Part shown: piece after piece, positions 27,918 to 59,550 of the stretch | Position numbering within the stretch: position 1 is the first letter of the stretch | Layout of the letters: every line of letters begins with the position of its first letter | NCBI GenBank assembly: GCA_037893245.1 | Contig: JBAIAA010000311.1 | Span: 372,001 to 436,000 of the forward strand | Length of the DNA stretch: 64,000 nucleotides | DNA from: Crossaster papposus | Taxonomy: Eukaryota; Echinodermata; Asteroidea; Velatida; Solasteridae | Reading direction: 5' to 3' | Notes under the pieces: generated by a model | What the model was told of the DNA's origin: nothing | The model's input: only the letters and a program-made list of their open reading frames with translations | Database searches by the model: none | Program-made: the position numbers and the translations under genes

Positions 27918-28035
27918 CTTTAACGATTACAATAGCTGTTTCGGTGAAAAACCGAAACAGCTAAAAAAAAAAAAAAAGAATAAAAAAAACTTTAACGAAA
28001 ACAATAGCTGTTTCGGCTGAAATGCCGAAACAGCT
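27918..28035 (-). repeat. Two stem-loop cassettes (family A type)
   Basis: Two units of about 45 bp: AACTTTAACGA(A/T)(A/T)ACAATAGCTG, then an AGCTGTTTCGG stem, a short loop and CCGAAACAGCT. The first has the GTGAAAAAC loop version and the second the CTGAAATG version. The second touches the CTAG of L6 (AGCTAA then CTAG). Confidence 0.85.
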
Positions 28036-28037
28036 AA

Positions 28038-28740
28038 CTAGACATGTGTTTGTGGACAAACACAGAGCTGTTTCGAGTGTCCAAGGTTACTTTCAATGTG
28101 TATGTGGTGGTCTTTTGTGTGTGCCGAATCTCAAGTCGATCAGACTTACTAGTGTCAAAGTCAATAGTCTAAAGAAAAACGTGTACAAAACCTATGGGGG
28201 AAAATTGAACCTTTAACGTGACGCCCCGTGACCTTGAATGACGTAATCGTGCCAAATTTCTCCTACGGCCGTCTGTGGATAGTGGTCTATGTGTGTGCCA
28301 AGTCTCAAGTCGATCGGATTTACTAAGTGTCGAAGTCAATAGTCTAAAGAAAAACGTGTACAAAACCTATGGAGGACAAATTAAACCTTTAACTTGACGT
28401 CACGTGACTTTGAATGACGCAATCGTGCTGAATTTCTGTCAGGAACATCTGGTGGTGGTTTTCTGAGTGTATGGCAAGTTTCAAGTCGGTCGGATTTACC
28501 AAAGTGTCAAATTCAATAGTCTTAAGAAAAACGTGTACAAAACCTATGGGGAACATTTCACGTTTAACGTGACGCCCCGTGACCTTGAATGACGTAATCG
28601 TGCCGAATTTCTTCTAGGACCGTCCTTGGGTGGTTGTCTAAATGTATGCCAAGTCTCGAGTCGATCGGATTTATCAAAGTACCTAAGTGACCTGTCTGAA
28701 CAAACGTGTACAAATCCTATGGAGAAAAGTCTGAAAAAGA
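28038..28740 (-). mobile_element. Helitron-like element L6 (family A)
   Basis: CTAG + hairpin end directly after the stem-loop cassettes. The 5' end is a variant, TCTTTTTCAGACTTTTC on the minus strand. About four 178-bp units. Confidence 0.7.
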
Positions 28741-28763
28741 AAAAAAAAAAAAAGAAAAAAAAA

Positions 28764-28810
28764 AACTTTAACGATTACAAAAGCTGTTTCGGTGAAAAAC
28801 CGAAACAGCT
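28764..28810 (-). repeat. Stem-loop cassette (family A type)
   Basis: One AACTTTAACGATTACAAAAG unit with an AGCTGTTTCGG / CCGAAACAGCT stem and GTGAAAAAC loop, in poly-A between L6 and L7. Confidence 0.85.
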
Positions 28811-28833
28811 AAAAAAAAAAAAAAAGAATAAAA

Positions 28834-30202
28834 CTAGACATGTGTTTGTGGACAAACACAGAGCTGTTTCGCTTGTCTAAAATGACTTTGAATATGTGAG
28901 AGGTGGTCTAAGTATGTACCAAATCTGAAGTCGATCGGATTTACCAAAGTGCCAAATATATATATGTTCCAAAAAACGTGTACAAATCCTACGGGGAAAA
29001 CTACACCTTTAATGTGACGTCACATGACACCCGATGACGTCATCATGACGTCAACTTACTTGACGTCAACTTACTTTTCGTCTATAACACATCCCGGAAT
29101 ACCCGAATACCGAGTTTGACCCTAATTGGAATTGTACTTTCAGAGATAGAGGGTCTTAAAAACTACACCTTTAATGTGACGTCACATGACCCACGATGAT
29201 GTTATCATGACGTTACCCTGATTTTCGTCTATAACACATCCTGGAATACTTGCATACCAAGTTTGACCCCAATCGGGCCTGTACTTCCAGAGATAGAGGG
29301 GCCTAACAACTGCACCTTTAATGTGACGTCACATGACCCACGATGACGTCATCATGACGATTTTTCCCTTGGCCTTCCTGGGGATGGTGGTTGAAGTGTG
29401 TGCTAAGTCTGAAGTCGATCAAATTTACGAAAGTGTCAAAGTTAAGTCTAAAGAAAAACGTGTACAAAACCTATGGGGGAATAATTTGCACATTTAACGT
29501 GACGTCACTTGACCTTGAAAGACGCAATCGTGCCGAATTTCTTCCAATATCATTTGTGGGTGGTGTTCTAAGTGTATGCTAAGTCTCAAGTCGGTCGGAT
29601 GTACCAAAGTGTTAAAGTCAATAGTGTGAAGAAAAACGTGTACAAAACCTATGGGGGAATAATTTGCACATTTAACGTGACGTCACGTGACCTTGAATGA
29701 CGTAATCGTGCCGAATGTCTTCTAGGACCGTCTGTGGATGGTGGTCTAAGTGTGTGCCAAGTCTCAAGTCGATCAAATTTCCGAAAGTGTCGAAGTCTTA
29801 GTCTAAAGAAAAACGTGTACAAAACCTATGGGGGAAAAAATTGAAACTTTAACGTGACGTTACGTGACCTTGAATGACGCAATCGTGCCGAATTTCTTCC
29901 AGGACCATCTGTGGGTGATGTTCTAAGTGTATGCCAAGTTTCAAGTCGGTCGGATGTACCAAAGTGTTAAATTCAATAGTGTGAAGAAAAACGTGTACAA
30001 AACCTATGGGGAAAATTTCACCTTTAACGCGAAGTCACGTGACCTTGAGTGACGTAATCACGACGGATTTCTTCTAGGACCGTCCTTGGGTGGTTGTCTA
30101 AATGTATGCCAAGTCTCAAGTCGATTGGATTTACCAAAGTGCCAAAGTGTATTGGCAGAACAAACGTGTGTAAATCCTATGGGTAAAAACACTGAAAGTG
30201 GA
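28834..30202 (-). mobile_element. Helitron-like element L7 (family A)
   Basis: CTAG + hairpin end, then ACACATCCCGGAATACC-type units and 178-bp units, and a TCCACTTTCAGTG 5' end on the minus strand. It is separated from L8 by only 11 A-rich bases. Confidence 0.7.
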
Positions 30203-30213
30203 AAAAGAAAAAA

Positions 30214-30743
30214 CTAGACATGTGTTTGTGGACAAACACGGAGCTGTTTCGAGTGTCTAAAATTACTTTCAATATGTGTGTGGTGGTCTTTAGTGTGTGC
30301 CAAGTCTCAAGTCGATCAGACTTACTAAAGTGTCAAAGTCAATATCCTAAAGAAAAACGTGTACAAAACCTATGGGGGAAAAATTGAACCTTTAACGTGA
30401 CGTCACGTGACCTTGAATGACGCAATCGTGCCGAATTTCTTTCAGGAACCTTTGGGGGTGGTGTTCTAAGTGTATGCCAAGTTTCAAGTCGGTCGGATTC
30501 ACCAAAGTGTCAAAGACAAAAGTCTTAAGAAAAACGTGTACAAAACCTATGGGAAAAATTTCACCTTTAACGCGAAGTCACGTGACCTTGAGTGACGTAA
30601 TCGCGGCGAATTTCTTCTAGGACCGTCCTTGTGTGGATGTCTAAATGTATGCCAAGTCTCAAGTCGATCGGATTTACCAAAGTACCTAAGTGACCTGTCT
30701 GAACAAACGTGTACAAATCCTATGGAGAAAATTCTGAAAAAGA
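30214..30743 (-). mobile_element. Helitron-like element L8 (family A, short)
   Basis: About 530 bp: CTAG + hairpin end, three core units, and a TCTTTTTCAGAATTTTC 5' end on the minus strand. Confidence 0.7.
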
Positions 30744-30759
30744 AAAAAAAAAAAAAGAA

Positions 30760-31296
30760 ACTAGACATGTGTTTGTGGACAAACACGGAGCTGTTTCGAG
30801 TGTCTAAAATTACTTTCAATATGTGTGTGGTGGTCTTTTGTGTGTGCCAATTAAGTCTCAAGTCGATCAGATTTACTAAAGTGTCAAAGTCAATAGTCTA
30901 AAGAAAAACGTGTACAAAACCTATAGGGGGAAACAATTTTCCCTTTAACGTGACGTCACGTGACCTTGAATGACGCAATCGTGCCAATTTTTTTTTAGGA
31001 ACATCTGGGGGTGGTGTTCTAAGAGTATGCTAAGTTTCCAGTCGGTCGAATTCACCAAAGTGTCAAAGACAATAGTCTTAAGAAAAACGTGTACAAAACC
31101 TATGGGAAAAATTTCACCTTTAACGCGAAGTCACGTGACCTTGAGTGACGTAATCGCGGTGAATTTCTTCTAGGACCGTCCTTGTGTGGTTGTCTAAATG
31201 TATGCCAAGTCTCATGTCGATCGGATTTACCAAAGTACCTAAGTGACCTGTCTGAACAAACGTGTACAAATCCTATGGAGAAAAATCTGAAAAAGA
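30760..31296 (-). mobile_element. Helitron-like element L9 (family A, short)
   Basis: Nearly the same layout and length as L8, which it follows after about 16 A-rich bases. The pair may be a tandem duplication rather than two insertions. Confidence 0.7.
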
Positions 31297-31319
31297 AAAA
31301 AAAAAAAAAGAAAAAAAAA

Positions 31320-31422
31320 AACTTTAACGATTACAAAAGCTGTTTCGGTGAAAAACCGAAACAGCTAAAAAAAAAACTTTAACGATTACAAAAGCTGTTT
31401 CGGTGAAAAACCGAAACAGCTA
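31320..31422 (-). repeat. Two stem-loop cassettes (family A type)
   Basis: Two near-identical units with the AGCTGTTTCGG / CCGAAACAGCT stem and GTGAAAAAC loop, each led by ACTTTAACGATTACAAAAG, in poly-A between L9 and L10. Confidence 0.85.
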
Positions 31423-31431
31423 AAAAAAAAA

Positions 31432-32131
31432 CTAGACATGTGTTTGTGGACAAACACAGAGCTGTTTCGAGTGTCTTTCAATATGTGTGTGATGGTCTTT
31501 TGTGTGTGCCAAGTCTCAAGTCGATCAGATTTGCTAAAGTGTCCAAGTCAATAGTCTAAAGAAAAACGTGTACAAAACCTATGGGGGAAAATTGAACCTT
31601 TAATGTGACGCCCCGTGACCTTGAATGACGTAATCGTGCCGAATTTCTTCTAGGGCCGTCTGTGGATGGTGGTCTAAGTGTGTGCCAAGTCTCAAGTCGA
31701 TCGGATTTACTAAAGTGTCAAAGTCAATAGTCTAAACAAAAACGTGTACAAAACCAATGGGAGAAAAATGTGAACCTTTAATGTGACGTCACGCAACCTT
31801 GAATGACGCAATCGTGCCGAATTTTTTTCAGAAACATGTGGGGGTGGTATTCTAAGTGTATGCCAAGTTTTAAGTCGGTCGGATTTACCGAAGTGCCAAA
31901 GTCAATAGTCTGAAGAAAAACGTGTACAAAACCTATGGGGAAAATTAAACCTTTAACGTGACGTCACGTGACCTTGAATGACGCAATCGAGCCAAATTTC
32001 TTCTAGGACCATCTGTGGGTGGAGGTCTAAGTGTATACCAAGTCTCAAGTCGATTGGATTTACCAAAGTGCCAAAGTGGACTGGCAGAACAAACGTGTGT
32101 AAATCCTATGGGTAAAAACACTGAAAGTGGA
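31432..32131 (-). mobile_element. Helitron-like element L10 (family A)
   Basis: CTAG + hairpin end at 31432 and TCCACTTTCAGTG 5' end at 32131, with about four 178-bp units between. It is the last family A element of the reverse-oriented arm; poly-A then leads into family B. Confidence 0.7.
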
Positions 32132-33050
32132 AAAAAAAAAAAAAAAACTAGAGATATGTCTGTTCAAGGAACAGAGCATATGGCTTTTTCGCATTTTTTT
32201 TTGTGTTGTTCATTACATTTATGATTTCATTTAATAAATTTCTGTATTTAATTTTTTCAAAACTGCAAATTTTAAATTATTAATTGGATTATATCTCTCG
32301 CGGTTAATTTTTAGAAATGTTTAAAGGTCTTTTAATTGTAATTTCCGGTCTAGTGACGTCATATTATTTTGTTTTTATCCGCCAACTTGTTCCTAACAAG
32401 ATGCTGATTATAAATACCAATTATAAAGCGATTTGAGCAAACTGATCTCCACGAAAATGAACTGATTATTCATTTTAAACATTTTTCAACCTGCCACTAG
32501 AGGGCGTTATAACAATTTATGACGTCACCGGTAACTTTGTTTGTAGAGTGCAGGCTACCTAGAGACTATCATCGTTGAAAGTAAATTCATATCATTTTCA
32601 ACTTTCAAATTATAAGGCACTTCCGGTTTGGACCGGAAGGAAGGGTCAAGTCATTTTGCATGTAATACGAATATGAAGACCCTGGATTATTCTATCAATT
32701 CCCGTTAAAATCTAAATCAGATCTGTTACATTTGATTTGATATTGATTTTCAAAGATTAAATCTACAAATCATTAGTTGCTTGCAATCTGATACTTGATG
32801 ACGTCATCGTGACGTCATTAACATACAGCTCGAGAGCTGTCTGAACTTGTCTATTTAAAGCAAAAAAAAGAATTATATCTATCGCGGTTGATTTTTCAGC
32901 AATTATTTAAGGTTTAAAGGTCTTTTCATTGTAACTTTCGGTCTAGTGACGTCATATTTGTTTGTCTTCGCCAACTTGTTCCTAACAAGATGTTGATTAT
33001 ATAAACCAGTTATACAGTGATTTGAGCAAACTTCGCAAAACAAATCAACT

Positions 33051-37392: not shown

Positions 37393-37419
37393 GGGTTTTT
37401 CGCTTTTAAGCGAAAAACC

Positions 37420-37452
<33 letters not shown>

Positions 37453-37831
37453 TTAACGAAAACAAAAGCTGTTTCGGTGAAAAACCGAAACAGCTAAAAA
37501 ACTTTAACGAAAACAATAGCTGTTTCGGCTGAAATGCCGAAACAGCTAAAAAAAAAAAAGAATAAAAAAAACTTTAACGATTACAATAGCTGTTTCGGCT
37601 GAAATGCCGAAACAGCTAAAAAGAAAAAAAAAAACTTTAACGAAAACAAAAGCTGTTTCGGTGAAAAACCGAAACAGCTAAAAAAAAAAAAAAAAAAAAG
37701 AAAAAAAAGAAAAAAAAAAACTTTAACGAAAACAAAAGCTGTTTCGGTGGAAAACCGAAACAGCTAAAAAAAAAAAAAAAAAAAATCAGAAGGAATACAA
37801 TAGCTGTTTCGGCTGTAGTGCCGAAACAGCT
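37393..37831 (-). repeat. Cluster of seven stem-loop cassettes in poly-A
   Basis: The first hairpin (37393-37420) is GGGTTTTTCGCTTT with its inverted partner AAGCGAAAAACCC and relates to the family B end motif. Six family A-type cassettes follow (AGCTGTTTCGG / CCGAAACAGCT) with three loop versions. The sixth abuts CTAG of element B2. This is the junction between B1 and B2. Confidence 0.85.
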
Positions 37832-37833
37832 AA

Positions 37834-39175
37834 CTAGAACTACGTCTGTTCAAGGAACAGAACATAGGGCTTTTTCGCTTTCGCATTTTTTTAGAGTATT
37901 TGTTTTAAAAAAATCCGAATTTAAGTTAATTTAAACAGATTAAAATAAATTCAAACTGATTAAAACAATGACGTCACACGTTTCTGAACTTTTTGTGCAA
38001 CTATCTATCACCTAACAACACAAAATGAGGTGTTATGTTAACACGATCCTTTGCTGAGATATGCCTTCAACGTCTAAAAACGTAATAATTCAAATATAAT
38101 CGTAATATGACGTAACATTTGTCAACATGACGCTAGAGGGCGCTTTAACATTTTATGAAGTCACTGTTAACATTTTTGTTACTTACAATCTAGCCAGCTC
38201 CTAACATCGTTGAAAGTAAGTTCACATCGTTTTATACTTTTAAATTATAAGAAACTTCCGGTTTGGACCGGAAGGAAGTGTCAGGTCTTTTTGCATGTAA
38301 TACAAATTATGAAGACCATGGATTAATCTATCAATCCCCCTTAAAATCTAAATCAGATCTCTTACAGTTGATTTTATATTGATTTTCAAAGATTAAATTT
38401 ATAAATATTTGGTTGCTTGTAATCTGACACTTGATGACGTCATCGTGACGTAATTAACAGAAAGCTCGAGAGCTGTCTTAACTTTGCTATTTCAAGCAAA
38501 AATCTGGATTATATCTATCGCGGTTTTTTTAAGCGACGTTTTAAGGTTTTAAGGTCTTTTCATTGTAACTTCCGGTTTGGTGACGTCATCAATAAATCTC
38601 TTTCTCAATATGTTCTTAGCACGAAGCTGATTATATACACCGGTTATAAAGTGATTTCAGCAAACTTCGCTACACACATCAACAGATTATTCATTTTAAC
38701 AATTTTTCAACCTGCCGCTAGAGGGCGCTATAACGTGTTATGACGTCGCCGGTAATTATTTGGAAAAGTTTATTCTAGCCAGACACTAACATCGTTGAAA
38801 GTAAGTTCATATCATTTTTCAGTTTTAAATTATAAGGCACTTCCGGTTTGGACCGGAAGGAAGGGTCACGCGATTTCACGCACGCGAGATAAAATTAAGA
38901 TCCTGGATTATCCTATCTATTGCCACAAAAAATAAGTTTCGGTCTTTTGCGGTTGATTTGTTATTGATTTTCAAAGATTAAATCAATTGCACCTTTAAGA
39001 TGACGTCACGTGACCCCTGATGACGTAACCATGACGTATTTCTGCGAGACACGAGTTCACTATAGGGTCTTCACCTGGGTTAAGTTTTATCGAAATATGA
39101 CTTTGTTTTCTGGTAAAAGTGACGGGCAGAAAATACGTGTACAAAGTCTATGGGGTTTAGGTTACTAAAAGAAAA
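37834..39175 (-). mobile_element. Helitron-like element B2 (family B)
   Basis: 3' end CTAGAACTACGTCTGTTC with hairpin TGTTCAAGGAACA and then AGGGCTTTTTCGC. Two core units with CTCF-type motifs at 38130 and 38715. 5' end CGTGTACAAAGTCTATGGGG then TTTAGGTTACTAAAAG. Confidence 0.65.
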
Positions 39176-39186: not shown

Positions 39187-40575
39187 CTAGAAATATGTCT
39201 GTTCTATGAACAGAGCATATGGCTTTTTCGAATTTTTGTTCATTGTTCATTACATTTATGATTTTATTTGTAAAATTTCCTTAGCATTCAATTTTTAAAA
39301 ATGAAAATTGAAAAACATTAATTGGATTATATCTCACGCGGTTTATTTTAAGCAATGTTTAAATGTTTAAAGGTCTTTGCATTGTAACTTCCGGTCTAGT
39401 GACGTCATATTTGTTTCTCTTCGCCAACTTGTTGCTGACAAGATGCTGATTATAAATACCAGTTACAAAGCGATTTGAGCAAACTCCGGCACACACATCA
39501 ACTGATTATTCATTTTAAACATGTTTCAACCTTCCACTAGAGGGCGCCGTGACAATTTATGACGTCACCGGTAACTTTTGTGTAGAGTGTAGCTAGACAG
39601 AGACTATCATAGTTGAAAGTAAGTTTATATCATTTTCAACTTTTAAATTATAAGGCACTTCCGGTTTGGACCGGAAGGAAGGGTCAAGTCATTTTGCATG
39701 TAATACAAAATATGAAGACCCTGGATTATTCTATCAATTCCCGTTAAAATCTAAATCAGATCTCTTACAGTTGATTTTATATTGATTTTTAAAGATTAAA
39801 TCTAGAAATCATTAGTTGCTTGTTATCTGATACTTGATGACGTCATCGTGACGTCATTAACATAAAGCTCGAGAGCTGTCTGAACTTGTCTATTTAAAGC
39901 AAAAAAAAGAATTATATCTATCGCGGTTGATTTTTCAGCGATTATTTAAGGTTTAAAGGTCTTTTCATTGTAACTTCCGGTCTAGTGACGTCATATTTTT
40001 TTCTCTCCGCCAACTTGTTCCTAACATGAAGTTGATTATATACACCAGGAGTGATTTGGGCAAACTTCGCCACACACATCAACTGATTATTCATTTTTAA
40101 CAGTTTTCAACCTGCCGCTAGAGGGCGCTGTAACATGTTATGACGTCACCGGTAATTTTTTTGAGAAGCACGATCTAACCAGAGACTAACATCGTTGAAA
40201 ATAAGTTCGCATCATTTTCCACTTTCAAATTATGAGGCACTTCCGGTTTAGACCGGAAGGAAGGGTCACGTGATTTCCCGCACACGAGATAAAATTAAGA
40301 TCCTGAATTATTCTATCTATTGCCACAAAAATTTAGTTTCGGTCTTTTGCGGTTGATTTGTTATTGATTTTCAAAGATTAAATCAATTGCACCTTTAAGA
40401 TGACGTCACGTGACCCCTGATGACGTAACCATGACGTATTTCTGCGAGACACGAGTTCACTATAGGGTCTTCACCTGGGTTAAGTTTTATGGAAATACGA
40501 CTTTGTTTTCTGGTAAAAGTGACGGGCAGAAAATACGTGTACAAAGTCAATGGGGTTTAGGTTACTAAAAGAAAA
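39187..40575 (-). mobile_element. Helitron-like element B3 (family B)
   Basis: 3' end CTAGAAATATGTCTGTTC with the hairpin now TGTTCTATGAACA: the stem is preserved while the loop differs from B1. It is followed by GGCTTTTTCG. Two core units; same 5' end as B2. Confidence 0.65.
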
Positions 40576-40584: not shown

Positions 40585-43005
40585 CTAGAACTACGTCTGT
40601 TCGAGGAACAGAACATAGGGCTTTTTCGCTTTCGCAATTTTTTACATTAATTTTTTCAAAAATTGAACTTTTATACCATCAAAATAATTTAAAATCATCG
40701 AAAACGAATTTAAGTTAATTTAAACAGATTAAAATGCATCCAAACTGATTAAAACGATGACGTCACACGTTTGTGAACTTTTTGTGCAACTATCTATCAC
40801 CTAACAATACAAACGTATGTTATGTTAGCACGTTCCGTTGCTGAGATATGACTTAAATGTCGAAAAACGTAATAATTCAAATATAATCGTAATATGACGT
40901 AACATTTGTCAACATGCCGCTAGAGGGCGCTATAACATTTTAAGAAGTCACCGTTAACTTGTTTGTTACTTACAACCTAGCCAGCGCCTAACATCGTTGA
41001 AAGTAAGTTCACATCGTTTTCCACTTTTAAATTATAATGCACTTCCGGTTTGGACCGGAAGGAAGGGTCAGGTTTTTTGCATGTAATACAAATTATGAAG
41101 ACCATGGATTAATCTATCAATTCCCTTAAAAATCTAAATCATATCTCTTACAGTTGATTTTATATTGATTTTCAAAGATTAAATCTATAAATATTTGGTT
41201 GCTTGTAATCTGACATTTGATGACGTCATCGTGACGTAATTAACATAAAGCTCGAGAGCTGTCTTTACTTTGCTATCTGATGCAAAAATCTGGATTATAT
41301 CTATAGCGGGTGATTTTTAAGCGATTGTTTAAGGTTTAAAGGATTTTTCATTGTAACTTCCGGTTTGGTGACGTCATAAATATTTCTCCTTCCCAATATG
41401 GTCTAAGCATGAAGCTGATTATATACACCGGTTATAAAGTGGTTTCAGCAAACTTCGCCACACACATCAACAGATTATTCATTTTAACCATTTTTCAACC
41501 TGCCGCTAGAGGGCGCTATAACATATTATGACGTCGCCTGATTTTTTTTGGAAAAGTTTATTCTAGCCAGAAACTAACATCGTTGAAAGTAAGTTCATAT
41601 CATTTTTCAGTTTCAAATTATGAGGCACTTCCGGTTTGGACCGGAAGGAAGGGTCACGTGATTTTAGCACACGAGATAAAATGAAGATTCTGGATTATTC
41701 TATCTATTGCCACAAAAATCAAGTTTCGGTCTTTTGTGGTTGATTTGTTATTTATTTTTAAAGATTAAATCAATTACACCTTTAAGATAAGGTCACGTGG
41801 CCCTGATGACGTCTTCCTCGTGGTGTCTGTCGGCGAGACTGGAGTTCACTATTGGGTCTTCACCTGGGTCAAGTTTATGGGAATACGACTTTGTTTTTCC
41901 GTTAAAAGTGCTTTGAATTGTGCAAGCAACGTTTACAAAGTCTACGGGGTTGGATTCTGCGTAGCCGAAAGCGTGTTTACCTACCTGTCGTACGCGGCGC
42001 CCTTCCCCATGGGCAATTTGTTGACGTCATCCTGTTTCACAGGTTGGCGGCTAGTGTCCTCTTGGGTAAGCGTACATGTGCTTGCACGAACGATGTCAGT
42101 GGTGATACATTCGCTCAATACATAATACACTATCAGTGTATACGTACATGTACTAGCATGTATATTATACGTGTGCCATACACACGTACGTAAGGGGTCA
42201 ATGCTTTTTGCACCTAGGCCAAAACGATTACATTTCAAGGGTGCCGCAGGGTATGTTCAAGTTCGTTTTTTGCCCCAAAACACAGGGAAGTTCGAGAACT
42301 ACTTTTACATTAACCTTTAGAGCAAAAATCAAGATTGTATCTGTCAGGATTAATTTTTTAGGAATTTTCAAAGGAAAAGGAGTCTTTTCATTCTAACTTC
42401 CGGTCTGGTGACGTCATAATTTTTTCTTCCCGTCAACTTGTTCCTACCATGAAGCTGATTAAATACACCGGTTATAAAGTGATTTCAGCAAACTTCGCCA
42501 CACACATCAACAGATTATTCATTTTAACAATTTTTTTAACTGCCGCTAGAGGGCGCTATAACATGTTATGACGTCACCAATATTTTTTTTGAAAAATACA
42601 TTGTAGCCAGACACTAACATAGTTGAAAGTAAGTTCATATCATTTTTCACTTTCAAATTATGAGGCACTTCCGGTTTAGACCGGAAGGAAGGGTCACGTG
42701 ATTTCACGCACACGAGATAAAATTAAGATCCTGGATTATTCTATCTATTGCCACAAAAATTAAGTTTCGGTCTTTTGCGGTTGATTTGTTATTGATTTTC
42801 AAATATTAAATCAATTACACCTTTAAGATGACGTCACGTGACCCCTGATGACGTCACCATTACGTTTTTCGGCGAGACACGAGTTCACTATAGGGTCTTC
42901 ACCTGGGTTAAGTTTTATGGAAATACGACTTTGTTTTCTATTAAAAGTGACTGGCAGAAAAAACGTGTACAAAGTCTATGGGGTTTAGGTTACTAAAAGA
43001 AAAAA
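40585..43005 (-). mobile_element. Helitron-like element B4 (family B)
   Basis: 3' end as B2. Three core units with CTCF-type motifs at 40917, 41503 and 42543. The stretch at about 41,900-42,300 is the uninterrupted counterpart of the B1 region split by the TIR transposon. It ends in TTTAGGTTACTAAAAG and an (AAG)n tail. Confidence 0.65.
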
Positions 43006-43039: not shown

Positions 43040-43252
43040 TCAGAACAGAAACAAAGGCTTTTTCGCAAAATTTGCGAAAAAGCCAAAAAATCAGAACAAA
43101 AACAAAGGCTTTTTCGCAAAATTTGCGAAAAAGCCAAAAATCAGAACAAAAACAAAGGCTTTTTCGCAAAATTTGCGAAAAAGCCAAAAAAAAAAGAAAA
43201 AAAAAAACTTTAACGAAAACAAAAGCTGTTTCGGTGAAAAACCGAAACAGCT
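43040..43252 (-). repeat. Four stem-loop cassettes (three family B type, one family A type)
   Basis: Three near-identical units (stems at 43056-43084, 43107-43135 and 43157-43185) have GGCTTTTTCGC, an AAAATTT-type loop and GCGAAAAAGCC, led by AGAACAAAAACAAA. One family A unit (AGCTGTTTCGG stem, 43224-43252) follows. The overlapping lysine-rich and phenylalanine-rich frames are artefacts. Confidence 0.85.
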
Positions 43253-43741
43253 AATAAAATGTCACCATGAAAAGAGGTTGGTTGAGAACATGCAATATCA
43301 GATATGTTAAGTTCTTTATGGGAAAATATAGGTATTGGTTATCATCAACAAGAATAATCTACTCGCAGCCGAGTGTGTATTAAATTTCTTTGGTGAATAT
43401 GCATATATAGATCTTACAATACATGTATAATTTTCAAGATGTGTCAAAGCAAGAATGCATTCCATATCAGATGCTATCATAAATATTTAACTATAAATCA
43501 TAAACAGGCGACAACGCAGATTACAGTGGGTTAACCGGCACCAGGTGTTGCATTTCCTTTTTGACTAGCAAAGTTTACATATCAATAACCTCTTGCTAAA
43601 GAAATAATATATATGACCTTATGACCAGAGTGTTTATTCAATTAAAACAAAGTAATAAAGTCTTTTTCACTTCAACCTCTTACTTCTTAGAATACAGCTG
43701 TATAGGAAAGCATATTTTAAACCAATGTTCTTCATATTATT
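43253..43741. other. Non-repetitive hinge between opposite arms
   Basis: About 485 bp with no family A or B sequence, no reading frame and no inverted repeat at its edges. On its left all Helitron-like elements run on the minus strand; on its right they run on the plus strand. It probably represents original host DNA. Confidence 0.6.
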
Positions 43742-43890
43742 AGCTGTTTCGGCATTTCAGCCGAAACAGCTATTGTAATCGTTAAAGTTTTTTTAGCTGT
43801 TTCGGCATTTCAGCCGAAACAGCTATTGTTTTCGTTAAAGTTTTTTTAGCTGTTTCGGTTTTTCACCGAAACAGCTTTTGTTTTCGTTAA

Positions 43891-43938: not shown

Positions 43939-44636
43939 CCACTTTCAGACTTTTTCCCATAGGATTTGTACACGTTTTTTCAGCCAATACACTTTGACAC
44001 TTTGGTAAATCCGATCGACTTAAGACTTGGCATACACTTAGACAACCACCCAAGGACGGTCCTAGAAGAAATTCGTCGCGATTCCGTCATTCAAGGTCAC
44101 GTGACTTCGCGTTAAAGGTGAAATTTTCCCCATAGGTTTTGTACACGTTTTTCCTCAGACTATTGAATTTGACACTTTGGTAAATCCAACCGACTTGAAA
44201 CTTGCCATATACTCAGAACACCACCACCAGATGTTTCTGAAAAAAATTCAGCACGATTGCATCATTCAAAGTCACGTGACGTCAAGTTAAAGGTTTAATT
44301 TGTCTCCCCATAGGATTTGTACACGTTTTTCTTTAGACTATTGACTTTGACACTTAGTAAATCCGATCGACTTGAGACTTGGCACACACATAGACCACTA
44401 TCCACAGACGGTCGTAGGAGAAATTTGGCACGATTACGTCATTCAAGGTCACGGGGCGTCACGTTAAAGGTTCAATTTTCCCCCATAGGTTTTGTACACG
44501 TTTTTCTTTAGACTATTGACACTAGTAAATCTGATCGACTTGAGACTTGGCACACACAAAAGACCACCACATACACATTGAAAGTAACTTTGGACACTCG
44601 AAACAGCTCTGTGTTTGTCCACAAACACATGTCTAG
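43938..44636 (+). mobile_element. Helitron-like element R1 (family A)
   Basis: 5' end TCCACTTTCAGACTTTTT after a long poly-T. Four core units. 3' end with hairpin TGTTTGTCCACAAACA then CATGTCTAG and T. About 700 bp, non-coding. The T residues on both flanks would fit T-T insertion as described for Helentron/HINE elements, while CTAG matches the canonical Helitron CTRR end. Confidence 0.75.
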
Positions 44637-44651: not shown

Positions 44652-44752
44652 AGCTGTTTCGGCATTTCAGCCGAAACAGCTATTGTTTTCGTTAAAGTTT
44701 TTTTAGCTGTTTCGGCATTTCAGCCGAAACAGCTATTGTTTTCGTTAAAGTT
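44652..44752 (+). repeat. Two stem-loop cassettes (family A type)
   Basis: Two units with the GCATTTCAGC apex and ATTGTTTTCGTTAAAG tail in poly-T between R1 and R2. Confidence 0.85.
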
Positions 44753-44760
44753 TTTTTTAT

Positions 44761-44792
<32 letters not shown>

Positions 44793-44793
<1 letters not shown>

Positions 44794-45493
44794 CCACTTT
44801 CAGACTTTTTCTCATAGGATTTGTACACGTTTCGTTCAGCCAATACACTTTGACACTTTGGTAGATCCGATCGACTTTAGACTTGGCATACATTTAGACA
44901 ACCACGCAAGGACGGTCCTAGAAGAAATTCGTCGCGATTACGTCATTCATGGTCACGTGACGTCACGTTAAAGGTGCAATTTTTCCCCATAGGTTTTGTA
45001 CACGTTTTCATTCAGACTATTGACTTTGACACTTTGATACATCCGACCGACTTGAAACTTGGCATATACTTAGAACATCACCCACAGATGGTCTTGGAAG
45101 AAATTCGGCACGATTGCGTCATTCAAGGTCACGTAACGTCAAGTTAAAGTTTCAATTTTTTCCCCCATAGGTTTTGTACACGTTTTTCTTTAGACTATGA
45201 CTTCGACACTTTCGTAAATTTGATCGACTTGAGACTTGGCACACACTTAGAACATCACTCATATATGGTTCTGGAAGAAATTCGGCACGATTGCGTCATT
45301 CAAGGTCATGTGACGTCACGTTAAAGGTTCATTTTGTCCCCCATAGGTTTTGTACACGTTTTTCTTTAGACTATTGCCTTTGACACTTTAGTAAATCTGA
45401 TCGACTTAAGACTTGGCACACACACAAGCCCATCACACACATATTGAAAGACACTCGAAACAGCTCTGTGTTTGTCCACAAACACATGTCTAG
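44793..45493 (+). mobile_element. Helitron-like element R2 (family A)
   Basis: Complete copy of about 700 bp, TCCACTTTCAGAC to CATGTCTAG, with four units. Confidence 0.75.
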
Positions 45494-45505: not shown

Positions 45506-45602
45506 AGCTGTTTCGGCATTTCAGCCGAAACAGCTATTGTTTTCGTTAAAGTTTTTAGCTGTTTCGGCATTTCAGCCGAAACAGCTATTGTTTTCGTTAA
45601 AG
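45506..45602 (+). repeat. Two stem-loop cassettes (family A type)
   Basis: Same units as at 44652-44752, separated only by TTTTT, between R2 and R3. Confidence 0.85.
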
Positions 45603-49358: not shown

Positions 49359-49888
49359 CACTTTCAGACTTTTTCCCATAGGATTTGTACACGTTTTTTC
49401 AGCCAATACACTTTGACACTTTGATAAATTCGATCGACTTGAGACTTGGTATGCATTTAGACAACCACCCAAAGACGGTCCTAGAAGAAAGTCGTCGCGA
49501 TTACGTCATTCAAGGTCACGTGACTTCGCGTCAAAGTTGAAATTTTCCCCATAGGTTTTGTACACGTTTTTCTTCAGACTATTGACTTTGGCACTTTGGT
49601 AAATCCGATCGACTTGAAACTTGGCATACCTTTAGAACATCACTCACAGATGGTTCTGGAAGAAATTCGGCACGATTGCGTCATTCAAGGTCATGTGACG
49701 TCACGTTAAAGGTTCAATTTGGCCCCCATAGGTTTTGTACACGTTTTTCGTTAGACTATTGACTTTGACACTTTCTTAAATTTAATCGACTTGAGACTTT
49801 GCACACACATAGACCACCACACACACATATTGAAAATAATGTAAGACACTCGAAACAGCTCTGTGTTTGTCCACAAACACATGTCTAG
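49359..49888 (+). mobile_element. Helitron-like element R5 (family A)
   Basis: It begins at the fusion point with ACTTTCAGACTTTTTCCC, has about three units, and ends with hairpin + CATGTCTAG. Confidence 0.7.
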
Positions 49889-49928: not shown

Positions 49929-52496
49929 CCACTTTCAGACTTTTTCTCATAGGATTTGTACACGTTTCGTTCAGCCAATACACTTTGACACTTTGGTAGA
50001 TCCGATCGACTTTAGACTTGGCATACATTTAGACAACCACGCAAGGACGGTCCTAGAAGAAATTCGTCGCGATTACGTCATTCATGGTCACGTGACGTCA
50101 CGTTAAAGGTGCAATTTTTCCCCCATAGGTTTTGTACACGTTTTCATCCAGACTATTGACTTTGACACTTTAGTAAATCCGATTGACCTAAAAGTTAGCA
50201 CACGTACACCTCAACCACCATCCTCAGAAGGGCCAATATGAAAATCGCCATGATGACGTCATCGGGGGTCATGTGACGTCACATTAAAGGTTCAGTTTTT
50301 AGGAGCCTCTAACTCTGGAAGTACAAATCCGATTAGTGTCAAACTTGGTATACAGGTATTCCGGGATGTGTTATATACGAAAATTAAGGTGACGTCATAA
50401 CGACGTCATAACGACGTCATGTGACGTCACATTAACCAGTTCGCGCCGGGATTATTTTAACATCGCCGAGCCGACGGGCGGGATTATTTTTAACGAAACT
50501 CGATCCGAAGCGTGTTCAGGCCGATAGTGCTGGGTAGCACACCCACGCATTTCCGGCCTTGCGCGCTGCTGACATACATTTCCGAACTTGAACTTGGCGT
50601 GTTTATTCGTCATCCGTTTTGAATTTGGGGAAATTTTTGCGTTTATATACGTCATCCGGCGCGAACTGGTTAAAGGTGTAGTTTTCCCCATACGATTTGT
50701 ACACGTTTTTTCACCCGATATATATTTGGCACTTTGGTAAATCCGATCGACTTCAGACTTGGCTAGCTACTCTTAGCATACTACCCACGGATGATTCTAG
50801 AAGAAATTCGTCACGATTACGTCATTCATGGTCACGTGACGTCACGTTAAAGGTTTAGTTTTCCCCCTTAGGTTTTGTACACGTTTTCATCAAGACTATT
50901 GACTTCGACACTTTAGTAAATCCGATTGACCTAAAAGTTAGCGCACACCTCAACCACCATCCTCAGAAGGGCCAATATGAAAATCGCCATGATGACGTCA
51001 TCGGGGGTCATGTGACGTCACATTAAAGGTTCAGTTTTTAGGAGCCTCTAACTCTGGAAGTACAAGTCCGATTAGTGTCAAACTTGGTATACAGGTATTC
51101 CGGGATGTGTTATATACGAAAATTAAGGTGACGTCATAATGACGTCATAACGACGTCATGTGACGTCACATTAAAGGTGTAGTTTTCCCCATACGATTTG
51201 TACACGTTTTTTCACCCGATATATATTTGGCACTTTGGTAAATCCGATCGACTTCAGACTTGGCTAGCTACTCTTAGCATACTACCCACGGATGATTCTA
51301 GAAGAAATTCGTCACGATTACGTCATTCGTGGTCACGTGACGTCACGTTAAAGGTTTAGTTTTCCCCCTTAGGTTTTGTACACGTTTTCATCAAGACTAT
51401 TGACTTCGACACTTTAGTAAATCCGATTGACCTAAAAGTTAGCGCACACCTCAACCACCATCCTCAGAAGGGCCAATATGAAAATCGCCATGATGACGTC
51501 ATCGGGGGTCATGTGACGTCACATTAAAGGTCAGTTTTTAGGACCCTCTATCTCTGGAAGTACAAGTCCGATTAGTGTCAAACTTGGTATACAGGTATTC
51601 CGGGATGTGTTATATACGAAAATTAAGGTGACGTCATAATGACGTCATAACGACGTCGTGTGACGTCACATTAAAGGTGTAGTTTTCCCCATAAGATTTG
51701 TACACGTTTTTTCACCCGATATATATTTGGCACTTTGGTAAATCCGATCGACTTCAGACTTGGCTAGCTACTCTTAGCATACTACCCACAGATGATTCTA
51801 GAATAAATTCGTCACGATTACGTCATTCGTGGTCACGTGACATCACGTTAAAGGTGCAGTTTTTTCCCCATAGGTTTTGTACACGTTTTTCTTCAGACTA
51901 TTGACTTTGACACTTTGGTAAATCCGATCGACTTCCGACTTAGCACACACTTCGATCACCATCCCCAGGAGGGCCAAGATAAAAATCGTCATGATGACGT
52001 CTTCGTGGGTCATGTGACGTCACATTAAAGGTGCATTTTTTTGGACCCTCTATCTCTGGAAGTACAGGTCCGATTGTGCTCAAACTTGGTTTACAGGTAT
52101 TCCGGGATGTGCTATAAATATAAATGGAGGTGATGGCATGATGACATCATCGGGTGTAATGTGGCGTCACCTTAAAGGTGTAGTTGTTAAGACCCTCTAT
52201 CTCTAGAAGTACAGGTCCGATTGGGGTCAAACTTGGTACGCAAGTATTCCAGGATGTGTTACAGACGAAAATTAAGATGACATCATGATGACATCATTGG
52301 GTGTCATGTGACGTCGCATTAAAGTTTCAATTTTCCCCATAGGATTTGTACACGTTTTTTCAACTAATATATCTTTGGCACTTGTGTAAATCCATCGACT
52401 TCAGACTTGGCACACACAAAAGACCACCACACACATATTGAAAGTAATTTTAGACACTCGAAACAGCTCTGTGTTTGTCCACAAACACATGTCTAG
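49928..52496 (+). mobile_element. Helitron-like element R6 (family A) with MITE insertion
   Basis: TCCACTTTCAGAC to CATGTCTAG, about 2.57 kb. The GGCTAGCTACTC block occurs three times (about 50,760, 51,260 and 51,750). The CCAGTTCGCG-family MITE copy D interrupts one unit at 50436-50669. Confidence 0.75.
50436..50669 (+). mobile_element. TTAA-flanked MITE (CCAGTTCGCG family), copy D
   Basis: 234 bp with TTAA at 50432-50435 and 50670-50673. The unit reads GACGTCACA-TTAA-[MITE]-TTAA-AGGTGTAG. Uninterrupted GACGTCACATTAAAGGTGTAG is present in sister units, for example near 51160 and 51660, which shows insertion at a single TTAA. Its position inside the array makes it younger than that array segment. 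Confidence 0.95.
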
Positions 52497-52503: not shown

Positions 52504-52547
52504 AGCTGTTTCGGCATTTCAGCCGAAACAGCTTTTGTTTTCGTTAA

Positions 52548-52549
<2 letters not shown>
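52504..52549 (+). repeat. Stem-loop cassette (family A type)
   Basis: One unit with the GCATTTCAGC apex, just after R6's CTAG. Confidence 0.85.
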
Positions 52550-52587
<38 letters not shown>

Positions 52588-52588
<1 letters not shown>

Positions 52589-53435
52589 CCTCTTTCAGAC
52601 TTTTTCCCATAGGATTTGTACACGTTTGTTCTGGCATAGCACTTTGACACTTTGGTAAATCCGATCGACTTGAAACTTGGCATATATTTAGACAACCACC
52701 CAAGGACGGTCCTAGAAGAAATTCGTCGCGATTACGTCATTCAAGGTCACGTGACTTCGCGTTAAAGGTTAAATTTTCCCCATAGGTTTTGTACACGTTT
52801 TTCTTCAGACTATTGATTTTGACACTTTGGTAAATCCGACCGACTTGAAACTTGGCATACACTTAGAACACCAGCCCCAGATGTTTCTGAAAGAAATTCG
52901 GCGCGATTGCGTCATTCAAGGTCACGTGACGTGACGTTAAAGGTCCAATTTTTTTCCCCATAGGGTTTGTACACGTTTTTCTTTAGACTATTGACTTTGA
53001 CACTTTCGTAAATTTGATCGACTTCAGACTTAGCGCATACCTCGACCACCATCCCCAGGAAGGCCAAGGGAAAAATCGTAATAATGACGTCATCGTGGGT
53101 CATGTGAGGTCACATTAAAGGTTCAGTTTTAAGGACCCTCTATCTCTAGAAGTACATGTTCGATTGGGGTCAAACTTGGTATGCAAGTATTCCAGGATGT
53201 GTTACAGACGAAAATTAAGATGACATCATGATGACATAATCGGGTATCATGTGACGTCACATTAAAGGTTCAATTTTCCCCATAGCATTTGTACACGTTT
53301 TTTTCAACCAATTTATCTTTGGCACTAAATTCGATCGACTTTAGACTTGGCACACACTTAGACCACCACACAAATATTGAAAGGCATTTTAGACATGCGA
53401 AACAGCTCTGTGTTTGTCCACAAACACATTTCTAG
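52588..53435 (+). mobile_element. Helitron-like element R7 (family A)
   Basis: 5' end variant TCCTCTTTCAGAC. The 3' end has the hairpin and CATTTCTAG (one base different from the usual CATGTCTAG). Five or so units, including two of the CCAGGATGTGTTACAGACG type. Confidence 0.7.
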
Positions 53436-53457
53436 TTTTTTTTTTTTTTTTTTTTTT

Positions 53458-55301: not shown

Positions 55302-55830
55302 ACTTTCAGACTTTTTCCCATAGGATTTGTACACGTTTTTTCAGCCAATACACTTTGACACTTTGATAAATCCGATCGACTTGAGACTTGGTATGCATTT
55401 AGACAACCACCCAAAGACGGTCCTAGAAGAAATTCGTCGCGATTACGTCATTCAAGGTCACGTGACTTCGCGTCAAAGTTGAAATTTTCCCCATAGGTTT
55501 TGTACACGTTTTTCTTCAGACTATTGACTTTGGCACTTTGGTAAATCCGATCGACTTGAAACTTGGCATACCTTTAGAACATCACTCACAGATGGTTCTG
55601 GAAGAAATTCGGCACGATTGCGTCATTCAAGGTCATGTGACGTCACGTTAAAGGTTCAATTTGGCCCCCATAGGTTTTGTACACGTTTTTCTTTAGACTA
55701 TTGACTTTGACACTTTCTTAAATTTAATCGACTTGAGACTTTGCACACACATAGACCACCACACACACATATTGAAAATAATGTAAGACACTCGAAACAG
55801 CTCTGTGTTTGTCCACAAACACATGTCTAG
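55302..55830 (+). mobile_element. Helitron-like element R9 (family A)
   Basis: Near-copy of R5, ending hairpin + CATGTCTAG at 55830. Two stem-loop cassettes follow here, whereas R5 is followed by plain poly-T. Confidence 0.7.
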
Positions 55831-55835
55831 TTTTT

Positions 55836-55941
55836 AGCTGTTTCGGTTTTTCACCGAAACAGCTATTGTTTTCGTTAAAGTTTTTTTTTTTTTTTTAGCT
55901 GTTTCGGTTTTTCACCGAAACAGCTTTTGTAATCGTTAAAG
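55836..55941 (+). repeat. Two stem-loop cassettes (family A type)
   Basis: Both have the GTTTTTCAC apex. The tails differ (ATTGTTTTCGTTAAAG and TTTGTAATCGTTAAAG). Confidence 0.85.
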
Positions 55942-55966
55942 TTTTTTTTTTTCTTTTTTTTTTTTT

Positions 55967-56662
55967 TCTTTTTCAGATTTTTCTCCATAGGATTTGTACA
56001 CGTTTGTTCAGACAGGTCACTTAGGTACTTTGGTCAATTCGATCGACTTGAGACTTGGCATACATTTAGACAACCACACAAGGACGGTCCTAGAAGAAAT
56101 TCGCCGCGATTACGTCACTCAAGGTCACGTGACTTCGCGTTAAAGGTGAAATTTTTCCCATAGGTTTTGTACACGTTTTTCTTAAGACTATTGTCTTTGA
56201 CACTTTGGTGAATCCGACCGACTTGAAACTTAGCATACACTTAGAACACCACACCCAGATGTTCCTGAAAGAAATTTGGCACGATTGCGTCATTCAAGGT
56301 CACGTGACGTCACGTTAAAGGTTCAATTTGTCCCCCATAGGTTTTGTACACGTTTTTCTTTAGACTATTGACTTTGACACTTTAGTGAATCCGATCGACT
56401 TCAGACTTGGCACACACCTAGACCACCGTCCACAGACGGTCCTAGGAGAAATTTGGCACGATTACGTCATTCAAGGTCACGGGGCGTCACGTTAAAGGTT
56501 CAATTTTCCCCCATAGGTTTTGTACACGTTTTTCTTTAGACTATTGACTTTGACACTTTAGTAAATCTGATCGACTTGAGACTTGGCACACACAAAAGAC
56601 CATAAACACATATTGAAAGACACTCGAAACAGCTCTGTGTTTGTCCACAAACACATGTCTAG
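55967..56662 (+). mobile_element. Helitron-like element R10 (family A)
   Basis: Variant 5' end TCTTTTTCAGATTTTTC (compare L6, L8 and L9 in reverse). Four units; ends hairpin + CATGTCTAG. Confidence 0.7.
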
Positions 56663-56684
56663 TTTTTTTTTTTTTTTTTTTTTT

Positions 56685-57383
56685 GCCTTTTGTTCTCCAT
56701 AGGATTTGTACACGTTTGTTCAGACAATACACTTTGACACTTTGGTAAATCCGATCGATTTGAGACTTGGCATACATTTAGACAACCACCCAAGGACGGT
56801 CCTAGAAGAAATTCGTCGCGATTACGTCACTCAAGGTCACGTGACTTTGCGTTAAAGGTAAAATTTTCCCCATAGGTTTTGTACACGTTTTTCTTCACAC
56901 TATTGACTTTGACACTTTGGTACATCCGACCAACTTGAAACTTGGCATACACTTAGAACATCACCCACAGATGGTCCTGGAACAAATTCGGCACGATTGC
57001 GTCATTCAAGGTCACGTAACGTCACGTTAAAGTTTAAATTGTTTCCCCCATAGGTTTTGTACACGTTTTTCTTTAGTCTATGACTTAGACACTTTCGTAA
57101 ATTTGATGGACTTGAGACTTGGCACACACTTAGACCACCATCCACAGACGGTCCTAGAAGACATTCGGCACAATTACGTCATTCAAGGTCACGGGGCGTC
57201 ACGTTAAAGCCTCAATTTCCCCCATAGGTTTTGTACATGTTTTTCTTTAGGCTATTGACTTTGACACTTTAGTAAATCCGATCGGCTTGAGACTTGCCAC
57301 ACACAGAAGACCACCGCACACATATTGAAAGTAATTTTAGACACTCGAAACAGCTCTGTGTTTGTCCACAAACGCATGTCTAG
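56685..57383 (+). mobile_element. Helitron-like element R11 (family A)
   Basis: Atypical 5' end GCCTTTTGTTCTCCATAGG after poly-T, shared with R14. Four units; 3' hairpin then GCATGTCTAG. Confidence 0.65.
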
Positions 57384-57401
57384 TTTTTTTTTTTTTTTTT
57401 T

Positions 57402-59337
57402 TCCACTTTCAGACTTTTTCTCATAGGATTTGTACACGTTTCGTTCAGCCAATACACTTTGACACTTTGGTAGATCCGATCGACTTGAAACTTGGCATAC
57501 AATAAGAACACCACCCACGGATGGTCCTAGAAGAAATTCGTCGCGATTACGTCATTCATGGTCACGTGACGTCACGTTAAAGGTGCAATTTTTCCCCATA
57601 GGTTTTGTACACGTTTTCATCCAGACTATTGACTTTGACACTTTAGTAAATCCGATTGACCTAAAAGTTAGCACACACCTCAACCACCATCCTCAGAAGG
57701 GCCAATATGAAAATCGCCATGATGACGTCATCGGGGGTCATGTGACGTCACATTAAAGGTTCAGTTTTTAGGAGCCTCTAACTCTGGAAGTACAAGTCCG
57801 ATTAGTGTCAAACTTGGTATACAGGTATTCCGGGATGTGTTATATACGAAAATTAAGGTGACGTCATAATGACGTCATAACGACGTCATGTGACGTCACA
57901 TTAAAGGTGTAGTTTTCCCCATACGATTTGTACACGTTTTTTCACCCGATATATATTTGGCACTTTGGTAAATCCGATCGACTTCAGACTTGGCTAGCTA
58001 CTCTTAGCATACTACCCACGGATGATTCTAGAAGAAATTCGTCACGATTACGTCATTCATGGTCACGTGACGTCACGTTAAAGGTTCAGTTTTCCCCCTT
58101 AGGTTTTGTACACGTTTTCATCAAGACTATTGACTTCGACACTTTAGTAAATCCGATTGACCTAAAAGTTGGCGCACACCTCAACCACCATCCTCAGAAG
58201 GGCCAATATGAAAATCGCCATGATGACGTCATCGGGGGTCATGTGACGTCACATTAAAGGTCAGTTTTTAGGACCCTCTATCTCTGGAAGTACAAGTCCG
58301 ATTAGTGTCAAACTTGGTATACAGGTATTCCGGGATGTGTTATATACGAAAATTAAGGTGACGTCATAATGACGTCATAACGACGTCGTGTGACGTCACA
58401 TTAAAGGTGTAGTTTTCCCCATAAGATTTGTACACGTTTTTTCACCCGATATATATTTGGCACTTTGGTAAATCCGATCGACTTCAGACTTGGCTAGCTA
58501 CTCTTAGCATACTACCCACAGATGATTCTAGAATAAATTCGTCACGATTACGTCATTCGTGGTCACGTGACATCACGTTAAAGGTGCAGTTTTTTCCCCA
58601 TAGGTTTTGTACACGTTTTTCTTCAGACTATTGACTTTGACACTTTGGTAAATCCGATCGACTTCCGACTTAGCACACACTTCGATCACCATCCCCAGGA
58701 GGGCCAAGATAAAAATCGTCATGATGACGTCTTCGTGGGTCATGTGACGTCACATTAAAGGTGCATTTTTTTGGACCCTCTATCTCTGGAAGTACAGGTC
58801 CGATTGTGCTCAAACTTGGTTTACAGGTATTCCGGGATGTGCTATAAATATAAATGGAGGTGATGGCATGATGACGTCATCGGGTGTAATGTGGCGTCAC
58901 CTTAAAGGTGTAGTTGTTAAGACCCTCTATCTCTAGAAGTACAGGTCCGATTGGGGTCAAACTTGGTATGCACGTATTCCGGGATGTGTTATAGGTATAC
59001 ATTGAGCTGACGTAATGATAACGACATCGGGTGTCATGTGACGTCACATTAAAGGTGAGTTTTTAAGACCATCTATCTCTGAAAGTACAAGTCCGATTTG
59101 GGTCAACATTGATACGCAAGTATTTCGGGATGTGTTATAGGTATTAATTGGGGTCACGTCATGATTATGTCATCGGGTGTAATGAGATGTCACATTAAAG
59201 GTGTATTTGTTATAGTTTTAGATGAATGTTTTTGTCATTTTTGTCACATTTGTTATCAATAAAAGTATGTTGTGATGGTGTCATTGAATCATTTAACACT
59301 GCCGAAACAGCTAGTGTTTGTCCACAAACACATCTAG
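57402..59337 (+). mobile_element. Helitron-like element R12 (family A, complete variant)
   Basis: The reference complete copy for R3, R4 and R8: TCCACTTTCAGAC to the variant 3' end GCCGAAACAGCTAGTGTTTG, hairpin and CATCTAG, about 1.94 kb. Its 3' end matches L5 in reverse. Confidence 0.75.
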
Positions 59338-59360
59338 TTTATTCTTTTTTTTTTTTTTTT

Positions 59361-59475
59361 AGCTGTTTCGGCATTTCAGCCGAAACAGCTATTGTTTTCG
59401 TTAAAGTTTTTTTTATTCTTTTTTTTTTTTTTAGCTGTTTCGGTTTTTCACCGAAACAGCTTTTGTTTTCGTTCT

Positions 59476-59506
<31 letters not shown>

Positions 59507-59550
59507 GCTGTTTCGGTTTTTCACCGAAACAGCTTTTGTTTTCGTTAAAG
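59361..59550 (+). repeat. Three stem-loop cassettes (family A type)
   Basis: One GCATTTCAGC apex and two GTTTTTCAC apexes. The middle one has a changed tail (TTTTCGTTCTGG) before a long poly-T. The poly-Phe and poly-Lys frames over it are artefacts. Confidence 0.85.

Follow-up and report, generated by a model that had tools for sequence, protein, structure and literature searches.

Stem-loop cassettes are the 5' ends of same-strand-nested Helentron-like elements in Crossaster papposus

The Helitron2 group, described in a paper that is reportedly by Bao and Jurka, is among the described systems closest to the elements considered here, which lie in 64,000 nucleotides of Crossaster papposus DNA (GenBank assembly GCA_037893245.1, contig JBAIAA010000311.1, positions 372,001 to 436,000 of the forward strand; the window, hereafter). 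Helitron2 elements have asymmetric terminal inverted repeats. The 5' one, 0-2 bases from the 5' end, pairs with bases downstream of it to form a 5' hairpin; the 3' one directly precedes a second hairpin, some 20-30 bases short of the 3' end (PMC3627910). HINEs, among them Cg_HINE of the Pacific oyster, run from a 5' subterminal inverted repeat (subTIR) and a complementary repeat through a microsatellite and central repeats to a 3' subTIR and a palindrome (PMC4067079, PMC7492417), and for the FoHeli elements of Fusarium oxysporum self-insertion has been given as the explanation of multiple 5' termini (PMC5148889). It is very probable that Helentron-like elements of this Helitron2/HINE type make up two opposed arrays in the window, in which stem-loop cassettes are the 5' ends and stacks of cassettes reflect same-strand nesting in leaders.

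An exact search of the plus strand of the window found AGCTGTTTCGG and CCGAAACAGCT 26 times each, giving 25 family-A stem-loops; the leftover unpaired arms, at 26469 and 59302, are part of a variant element's 3' end. Family B is represented by three stem-loops of GGCTTTTTCGC/GCGAAAAAGCC, at 43056, 43107 and 43157, and by one variant, GGGTTTTTCGC, at 37393. A scan of the window permitting up to two mismatches per arm found no additional arm pairs outside the two arrays. Folded as single-stranded DNA, three cassettes gave -13.4, -14.2 and -14.8 kcal/mol, values that none of 200 shuffles equalled. No Rfam family reached its gathering score in the window, and an RNA function of the stem-loop, for which support was looked for in Rfam alone, was dropped. 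The initial annotation had counted about 25 A cassettes, three of B and one variant and had seen them oriented with the arm in which they lie; the exact search returned 25, three and one, and each cassette is on the strand of its array throughout both. The minus-strand array spans 43252 to 21415, and the plus-strand array begins at 43742 and reaches at least 60580; their joint extent (21415 to at least 60580) goes past the 27918..59550 delimited before. The two are not mirror copies of one another, and blocks of at least 95% identity between them reach only 1.7 kb. A second pair of arrays facing each other 5' to 5' occurs in L056 at 105-326 (C3:1761290-1761900), with a spacer of 222 bp compared with 489 bp in the window.

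The cassette is the 5' end of a Helentron-like element. A lone copy (L004, on contig C1) reads TT, 5' hairpin, leader, poly-T, body, 3' motif, hairpin, CTAG and TT; in letters the order is ATTATT, cassette, TTTGTTTTCGTTAAAG, a T run, TCCACTTTCAG with the repeat body, CGAAACAGCT, hairpin, CTAG and TTATTT. Seven elements or small arrays, this copy among them, were picked for exact A ends listed on both sides, and in 7/7 the outer junctions were TT followed by AGCTG and CTAG followed by TT. A further 15 outermost cassettes were taken from the first listed places: five adjoin non-element DNA, each with TT, which makes 12/12 such junctions at which TT precedes the cassette; two follow a CTAG end and one follows another cassette, across T runs; and three are identical copies within a family-B 3' end, at TT. 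TT also precedes the outermost cassette in four more arrays, namely both window arrays and the two facing arrays of L056. At C3:1697137 the flank is itself repeated, and the 2+5 Ts of the filled site correspond to five bases in 11/11 uninterrupted copies, a comparison of the length of the place only, in which the identity of the five bases had no part. Since all 11 empty sites are shorter, the cassette belongs within the inserted unit, and the net gain is two bases. One of the seven, the copy at C5:4138525 (L051/L052), has a 16-base direct repeat, TTGTCTTAGATGTTAT, at both flanks, which counts against the absence of target-site duplications longer than TT and resembles the variable target-site duplications known in some Helitron2 elements (PMC3627910). 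The placement of cassettes beside element ends, as first described, needs correction: the cassettes are real, but they are the 5' ends themselves and not neighbours of ends. Cassettes as independent mini-elements were considered and dropped, as an intact leader of constant length (in one subtype) ties them to bodies.

In families A and B alike, the cassette arm equals the family's own subterminal 3' motif, and the earlier view of two Helitron-like families, each with a matching cassette, was borne out. The arm equals the motif because both are the asymmetric inverted repeats of Helitron2 (PMC3627910) and of the oyster HINEs (PMC7492417). Contigs C1-C16 hold 42 clusters of exact features, and 23 of these contain both cassettes and ends, in exactly balanced numbers in 14/23; among the 23, an A end is present in 12/12 clusters with A cassettes only and a B end in 9/9 with B cassettes only. 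The 3' hairpins fold less strongly than the 5' ones, 3/200 shuffles being as good for each of the two that were folded. Hybrid 5' ends, with an A hairpin and a B-like tail (TTCTGA or TTCTGG before the T run), were seen in the window at 37781-37831 and 59433-59482 and in L059.

A new copy inserts into the poly-T leader of an older one, on the same strand, and a cassette opens each element that a CTAG closes. Cassettes stack because the new copy lands in the T run behind the older cassette; the docking sites suggested in the initial annotation were close to this in effect, with the poly-T behind the cassette, not the cassette, as the landing place. Excision of the inserts restored four A leaders, those of 43795 (three inserts), 44652 (three), 45506 (one) and, in the minus-strand array, 31393 (one). 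In three of these the restored leader is T10-ATTC compared with T8-ATTC in intact leaders, and in the fourth it is T13 compared with T11; the window's intact leaders of the T8-ATTC type have eight Ts in 6/6 cases. Since the leader that an insertion interrupts has a fixed length and gains two Ts, the restored run equals the intact one plus two. When the left array was parsed as typed A and B brackets, 13/13 closings fit the type, a result that 32 of 200,000 shuffles matched, and in the right array 10/10 closings fit, with the leader remainder following the correct CTAG. A third closing end predicted for an array on C1 was located at C1:1041391.

The same pattern was found across the 1.02-Gb genome. 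A search for both stems, the check proposed in the initial annotation, found 9256 copies of the A stem and 2719 of the B stem, with none for the reversed-pattern control. The 3' ends numbered 7447 for A (exact 38-base matches) and 3021 for B (counted by the B hairpin and CTAG, some positions being left free), so that the totals of cassettes and 3' ends are not far from one to one. The intact leader of one subtype had eight Ts in 100/100 listed of 129 places, under a pattern that permitted 4 to 13. For split leaders, each first half (100 listed of 114) was matched to the closest same-strand second half lying downstream; of the 48 second halves 39 were used, the other nine being on contigs from C1094 onwards, which the list of first halves did not reach. 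The T counts summed to ten in 13/14 pairs within 5 kb, 16/17 within 10 kb and 18/21 within 30 kb, results that were equalled in 90, 0 and 3 of 100,000 shuffles, respectively. A cassette with the TTTTTCA loop followed CTAG within 7 bases on the same strand at 442 places and in inverted orientation at none. Among 100 of these junctions that were listed, the spacing was 2 bases (27), 4 (5), 5 (35), 6 (9) or 7 (24), and never 0, 1 or 3.

Several observations weigh against nested insertion of such elements as a full account. The rejoined leaders of the B elements at 43107 and 43157 are continuous, but they have T12 and T13 compared with T11 in the intact leader, and they are without the CTT run of the single intact B leader. 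The order in the right array, which is of one type, is not unusual taken alone, as 57,200 of 200,000 shuffles were as good, and three cassettes there are still open at the window end. In the left array three A cassettes have no closing end, the junction near 25860 resembles a truncated copy, and the T4-ATTC that follows 28837 suits the T6 leader at 37518, in conflict with the stack pairing; under that T4/T6 pairing one more opening end is needed than is present. The misfit in this array could be explained by repeat-to-repeat deletions, by slippage, or by composite elements that carry more than one 5' end and terminate at the first CTAG. The remaining four of the 15 outermost cassettes, on C5, are without a preceding TT, all of them inside copies of one other repeat, and no empty site was found for L004. 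In the genome as a whole, A cassettes outnumber exact A ends by about a quarter, exact matching being a method that misses worn ends. On C1-C16, 9/42 clusters have cassettes only and 10/42 ends only. Cassettes far from any end were what the initial annotation had named as a refutation, and this applies in part, to the nine clusters without an exact end within 5 kb. The second-half pattern had one match in the reversed control, the split-leader pairs are partly non-independent through common arrays, and at 30 kb one first half served three pairs and three pairs did not sum to ten. Finally, no autonomous element with A or B ends was found around ten Helitron_like_N loci, in a search that covered 20 kb around each locus for hairpins before CTRR and for matching hairpin and inverted-repeat ends, and at four of the ten loci also for any hairpin of at least 7 pairs; the ten loci had no matching pairs of hairpin and inverted-repeat ends.

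Among the C5 cassettes without TT (L065-L068, L075), one that was read further had a worn leader and a partial family-B 5' arm. The scans for hairpins before CTRR and for hairpins of at least 7 pairs did return hairpins at the Helitron_like_N loci, among them, beside two loci, a GC-rich palindrome ending in CTAG, which could not be tied to an element or to the A and B families. One of two long frames scanned, of 3142 codons, has Helitron_like_N (Rep), PIF1 helicase, OTU and endonuclease domains, features that have been listed for Helentrons (PMC4067079), and the other long frame had no OTU or endonuclease match. Two of the ten loci, L035/L036 and L037/L038, on two contigs, are 99.9% identical over 18.9 kb around the 3142-codon Helentron-type frame, so the element boundaries there cannot be told by comparison; perhaps these are uncollapsed haplotypes.

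Established here are the termini, the TT target, the two-base gain and the same-strand nesting in leaders. A family-A element comprises a 5' hairpin (AGCTGTTTCGG-loop-CCGAAACAGCT), a short leader, poly-T, the repeat body, the 3' inverted-repeat motif, a second hairpin and a terminal CTAG-3', and a family-B element has the hairpin GGCTTTTTCGC-loop-GCGAAAAAGCC and otherwise the same layout. Judging from the literature, an autonomous Helentron would move these elements by rolling-circle transposition, and pairing of the 5' and 3' inverted repeats may replace the 5' hairpin as replication ends, as proposed for Helitron2 (PMC3627910). Nesting on the same strand would reflect the T strand of the leader as the preferred target, and part of the A-cassette surplus may be composite elements, each with several 5' ends and terminated by the first CTAG, of the kind proposed for Fusarium Helitrons (PMC5148889). 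A stronger claim, that the poly-T leader is selected as a self-landing site and that the leaders of relatives are preferred over other T runs, seems to us rather doubtful: the leader is often used as a target, and a preference beyond T content is not seen in these data. Were the claim true, nested same-strand arrays with readable order would form, host genes would be spared, and composite elements with several 5' ends would arise.

The initial annotation explained the cassettes as copies of the subterminal motif made at the replication end, and as spare terminators beside the 3' end. The equality of the arm and the 3' subterminal motif agrees with this, as do the many cassettes closely after CTAG (for one loop type, 442 places with a gap of at most 7 bases), but in 7/7 copies read at both ends the cassette is 5' and none stands straight after the outer CTAG. 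TT then cassette is also what was found at 12/12 outermost junctions with non-element DNA, 11 insert-free sites are without a cassette, and the cassette has a tail and leader of its own (CGTTAAAG-T8-ATTC in one subtype), while the outer CTAG is followed by flank. Duplication of ends during rolling-circle termination does not suit outermost cassettes that are 5', after TT and not behind CTAG, and spare terminators do not suit the 5' position or a number near one to one with the 3' ends. With cassettes at the 5' terminus and insertions nested, neither idea is needed, and we consider this explanation extremely unlikely. Serial insertion into tails is common among poly-A-tailed retroposons, and since the order on the opposite strand is CTAG, body, poly-A and hairpin, the elements might be taken for retroposons of that strand inserted in one another's tails. 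Their poly-A, however, is not terminal, as it is followed by the hairpin, whose boundary is fixed, 6/7 flank pairs have by eye no direct repeat beyond TT, and the combination of two hairpins and terminal inverted repeats agrees with Helitron2 (PMC3627910), which makes a retroposon origin scarcely credible.

It also seems improbable that the stacks came mainly from tandem duplication of 5' ends, slippage or rolling-circle concatemers. Second halves of split leaders, which duplication does not predict, are found after the downstream CTAG with T sums of intact plus two, and A and B brackets pair by type in the left array. What speaks for such processes is the excess of A cassettes over exact A ends, near-identical neighbours such as 31338/31393, a two-base gap in 27/100 listed CTAG-cassette junctions and a three-base gap in none, eight two-base junctions in a row on C80 with few-kb spacing and a head-to-tail look, and the plant arrays in which many 5' ends accompany a single 3' end (PMC12628747). 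The two-base spacing class may represent head-to-tail circle copies rather than insertions, exact head-to-tail circles being known for Helraiser (PMC4778049). The C80 stretch, at about 870-895 kb, has its eight CTAG-two bases-cassette junctions at spacings of about 2.1 to 7.2 kb and is a possible head-to-tail array.

Features of the two opposed arrays and the spacer between them, in window coordinates
Feature	Position	Strand
A cassette, outermost 5' end of left array, next to central spacer	43224..43252	-
Three stacked family-B cassettes (5' ends)	43056..43185	-
Family-B 3' end (3' inverted repeat, hairpin, CTAG)	40585..40629	-
Family-B 3' end	39187..39230	-
Family-B 3' end, then TT and A cassette	37834..37878	-
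Six stacked A cassettes (5' ends) with leaders	37467..37831	-
B-variant cassette GGGTTTTTCGC	37393..37420	-
Family-B 3' end	32148..32192	-
A 3' end	31432..31469	-
Two A cassettes; inner element 31366-30761 splits outer leader	31338..31421	-
A 3' end	30761..30798	-
A 3' end	30214..30251	-
A 3' end, then T4-ATTC (split-leader remainder)	28834..28871	-
A cassette	28782..28810	-
A 3' end, then TT and A cassette	28038..28075	-
Two A cassettes	27934..28035	-
Variant A 3' end (motif GCCGAAACAGCT, hairpin, CTAG)	26444..26480	-
A 3' end	25130..25167	-
A 3' end	22147..22184	-
A 3' end, outermost 3' end of left array	21415..21452	-
Spacer of 489 bp between 5' ends of the opposed arrays	43253..43741	.
Three stacked A cassettes, outermost 5' end of right array	43742..43876	+
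A 3' end, then T3-ATTC (leader remainder of element 43795)	44599..44636	+
Two A cassettes	44652..44734	+
Intact leader ATTGTTTTCGTTAAAG-T8-ATTC-T31	44735..44793	+
A 3' end, then T3-ATTC (leader remainder of element 44652)	45456..45493	+
Two A cassettes	45506..45586	+
A 3' end, then T5-ATTC (leader remainder of element 45506)	49851..49888	+
A 3' end	52459..52496	+
A cassette	52504..52533	+
A 3' end (one mismatch)	53398..53435	+
A 3' end	55793..55830	+
Two A cassettes	55836..55925	+
A 3' end	56625..56662	+
A 3' end (one mismatch)	57346..57383	+
Variant A 3' end	59301..59337	+
Three stacked A cassettes	59361..59534	+
A 3' end, last one in window	60543..60580	+

Elsewhere in the window is a large inverted repeat (7898-10635), with 578-base arms that are 99% complementary and 151-base arms that are 98% complementary, about 1.3-1.6 kb apart. 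G runs of 11 to 29 bases occur at 18319-18347, 19545-19603, 3326-3345, 11749-11773 and 20799-20810, and the G stretch at 19545 has two single interruptions.

The insertions leave a written record of the order in which they happened and of which 5' end belongs with which 3' end in a large array, and they offer a natural test of target choice by Helentrons, of the joint travel of stacked 5' ends and of the growth of satellite-like arrays. The parts are not new: published descriptions already include a 5' hairpin, a TT target and self-insertion that leaves more than one 5' end. The initial annotation knew of no comparable Helitron accessory; such a 5' hairpin has been described (PMC3627910, PMC7492417). 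In the open-access full-text literature, which leaves subscription papers mostly outside, no report was found of leader restoration or T counting as proof of nesting. The interesting part is the readable self-nesting, which is useful as a tool and does not amount to a new system.

Compared with known classes, the elements have the features of Helitron2 and HINE: a 5' inverted repeat at the 5' end as a hairpin, a matching 3' inverted repeat just upstream of the 3' hairpin in both A and B, a TT target in T-rich DNA (TT on both sides in 7/7; 11/11 empty sites two bases shorter), a microsatellite with central tandem repeats (the poly-T leader, and repeated body units by eye), and no coding capacity, as the window has no stop-to-stop frame of at least 200 codons. 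Canonical Helitrons (Helitron1) have a 5' TC without a hairpin and insert between A and T, whereas here (TT)AGCTG and a hairpin form the 5' end and TT is on both sides in 7/7; the 3' CTRR with a hairpin shortly upstream is shared, as CTAG follows a hairpin. As in Helitron2, the 5' repeat is near the end (two Ts precede the 5' stem, if they are the element's own), and 28 bases follow the family-A 3' motif. Unlike in Helitron2, the CTAG end is the CTRR form given for Helitron1 (PMC3627910), and nesting in leaders does not appear in the available part of the Helitron2 description (PMC3627910). The elements share with the HINEs, which are non-autonomous Helentrons, the TT target in T-rich DNA, boundary Ts and lack of coding capacity (PMC4067079, PMC7492417), but their microsatellite is a long T run, which follows the 5' hairpin and a short tail and is targeted by further copies. 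Proto-Helentron of Phytophthora likewise has a 5' TT and a 3' CTAG, but it encodes proteins and has its insertion site between A and T, and the available part of its description gives no 5' hairpin or inverted repeats (PMC4067079). FoHeli has asymmetric inverted repeats, a 5' hairpin and several 5' termini per 3' terminus, as found here; 63 Helitrons are mentioned in that study (PMC5148889), whereas in Crossaster papposus there are thousands of ends, and the T counts of split leaders locate the point of insertion.

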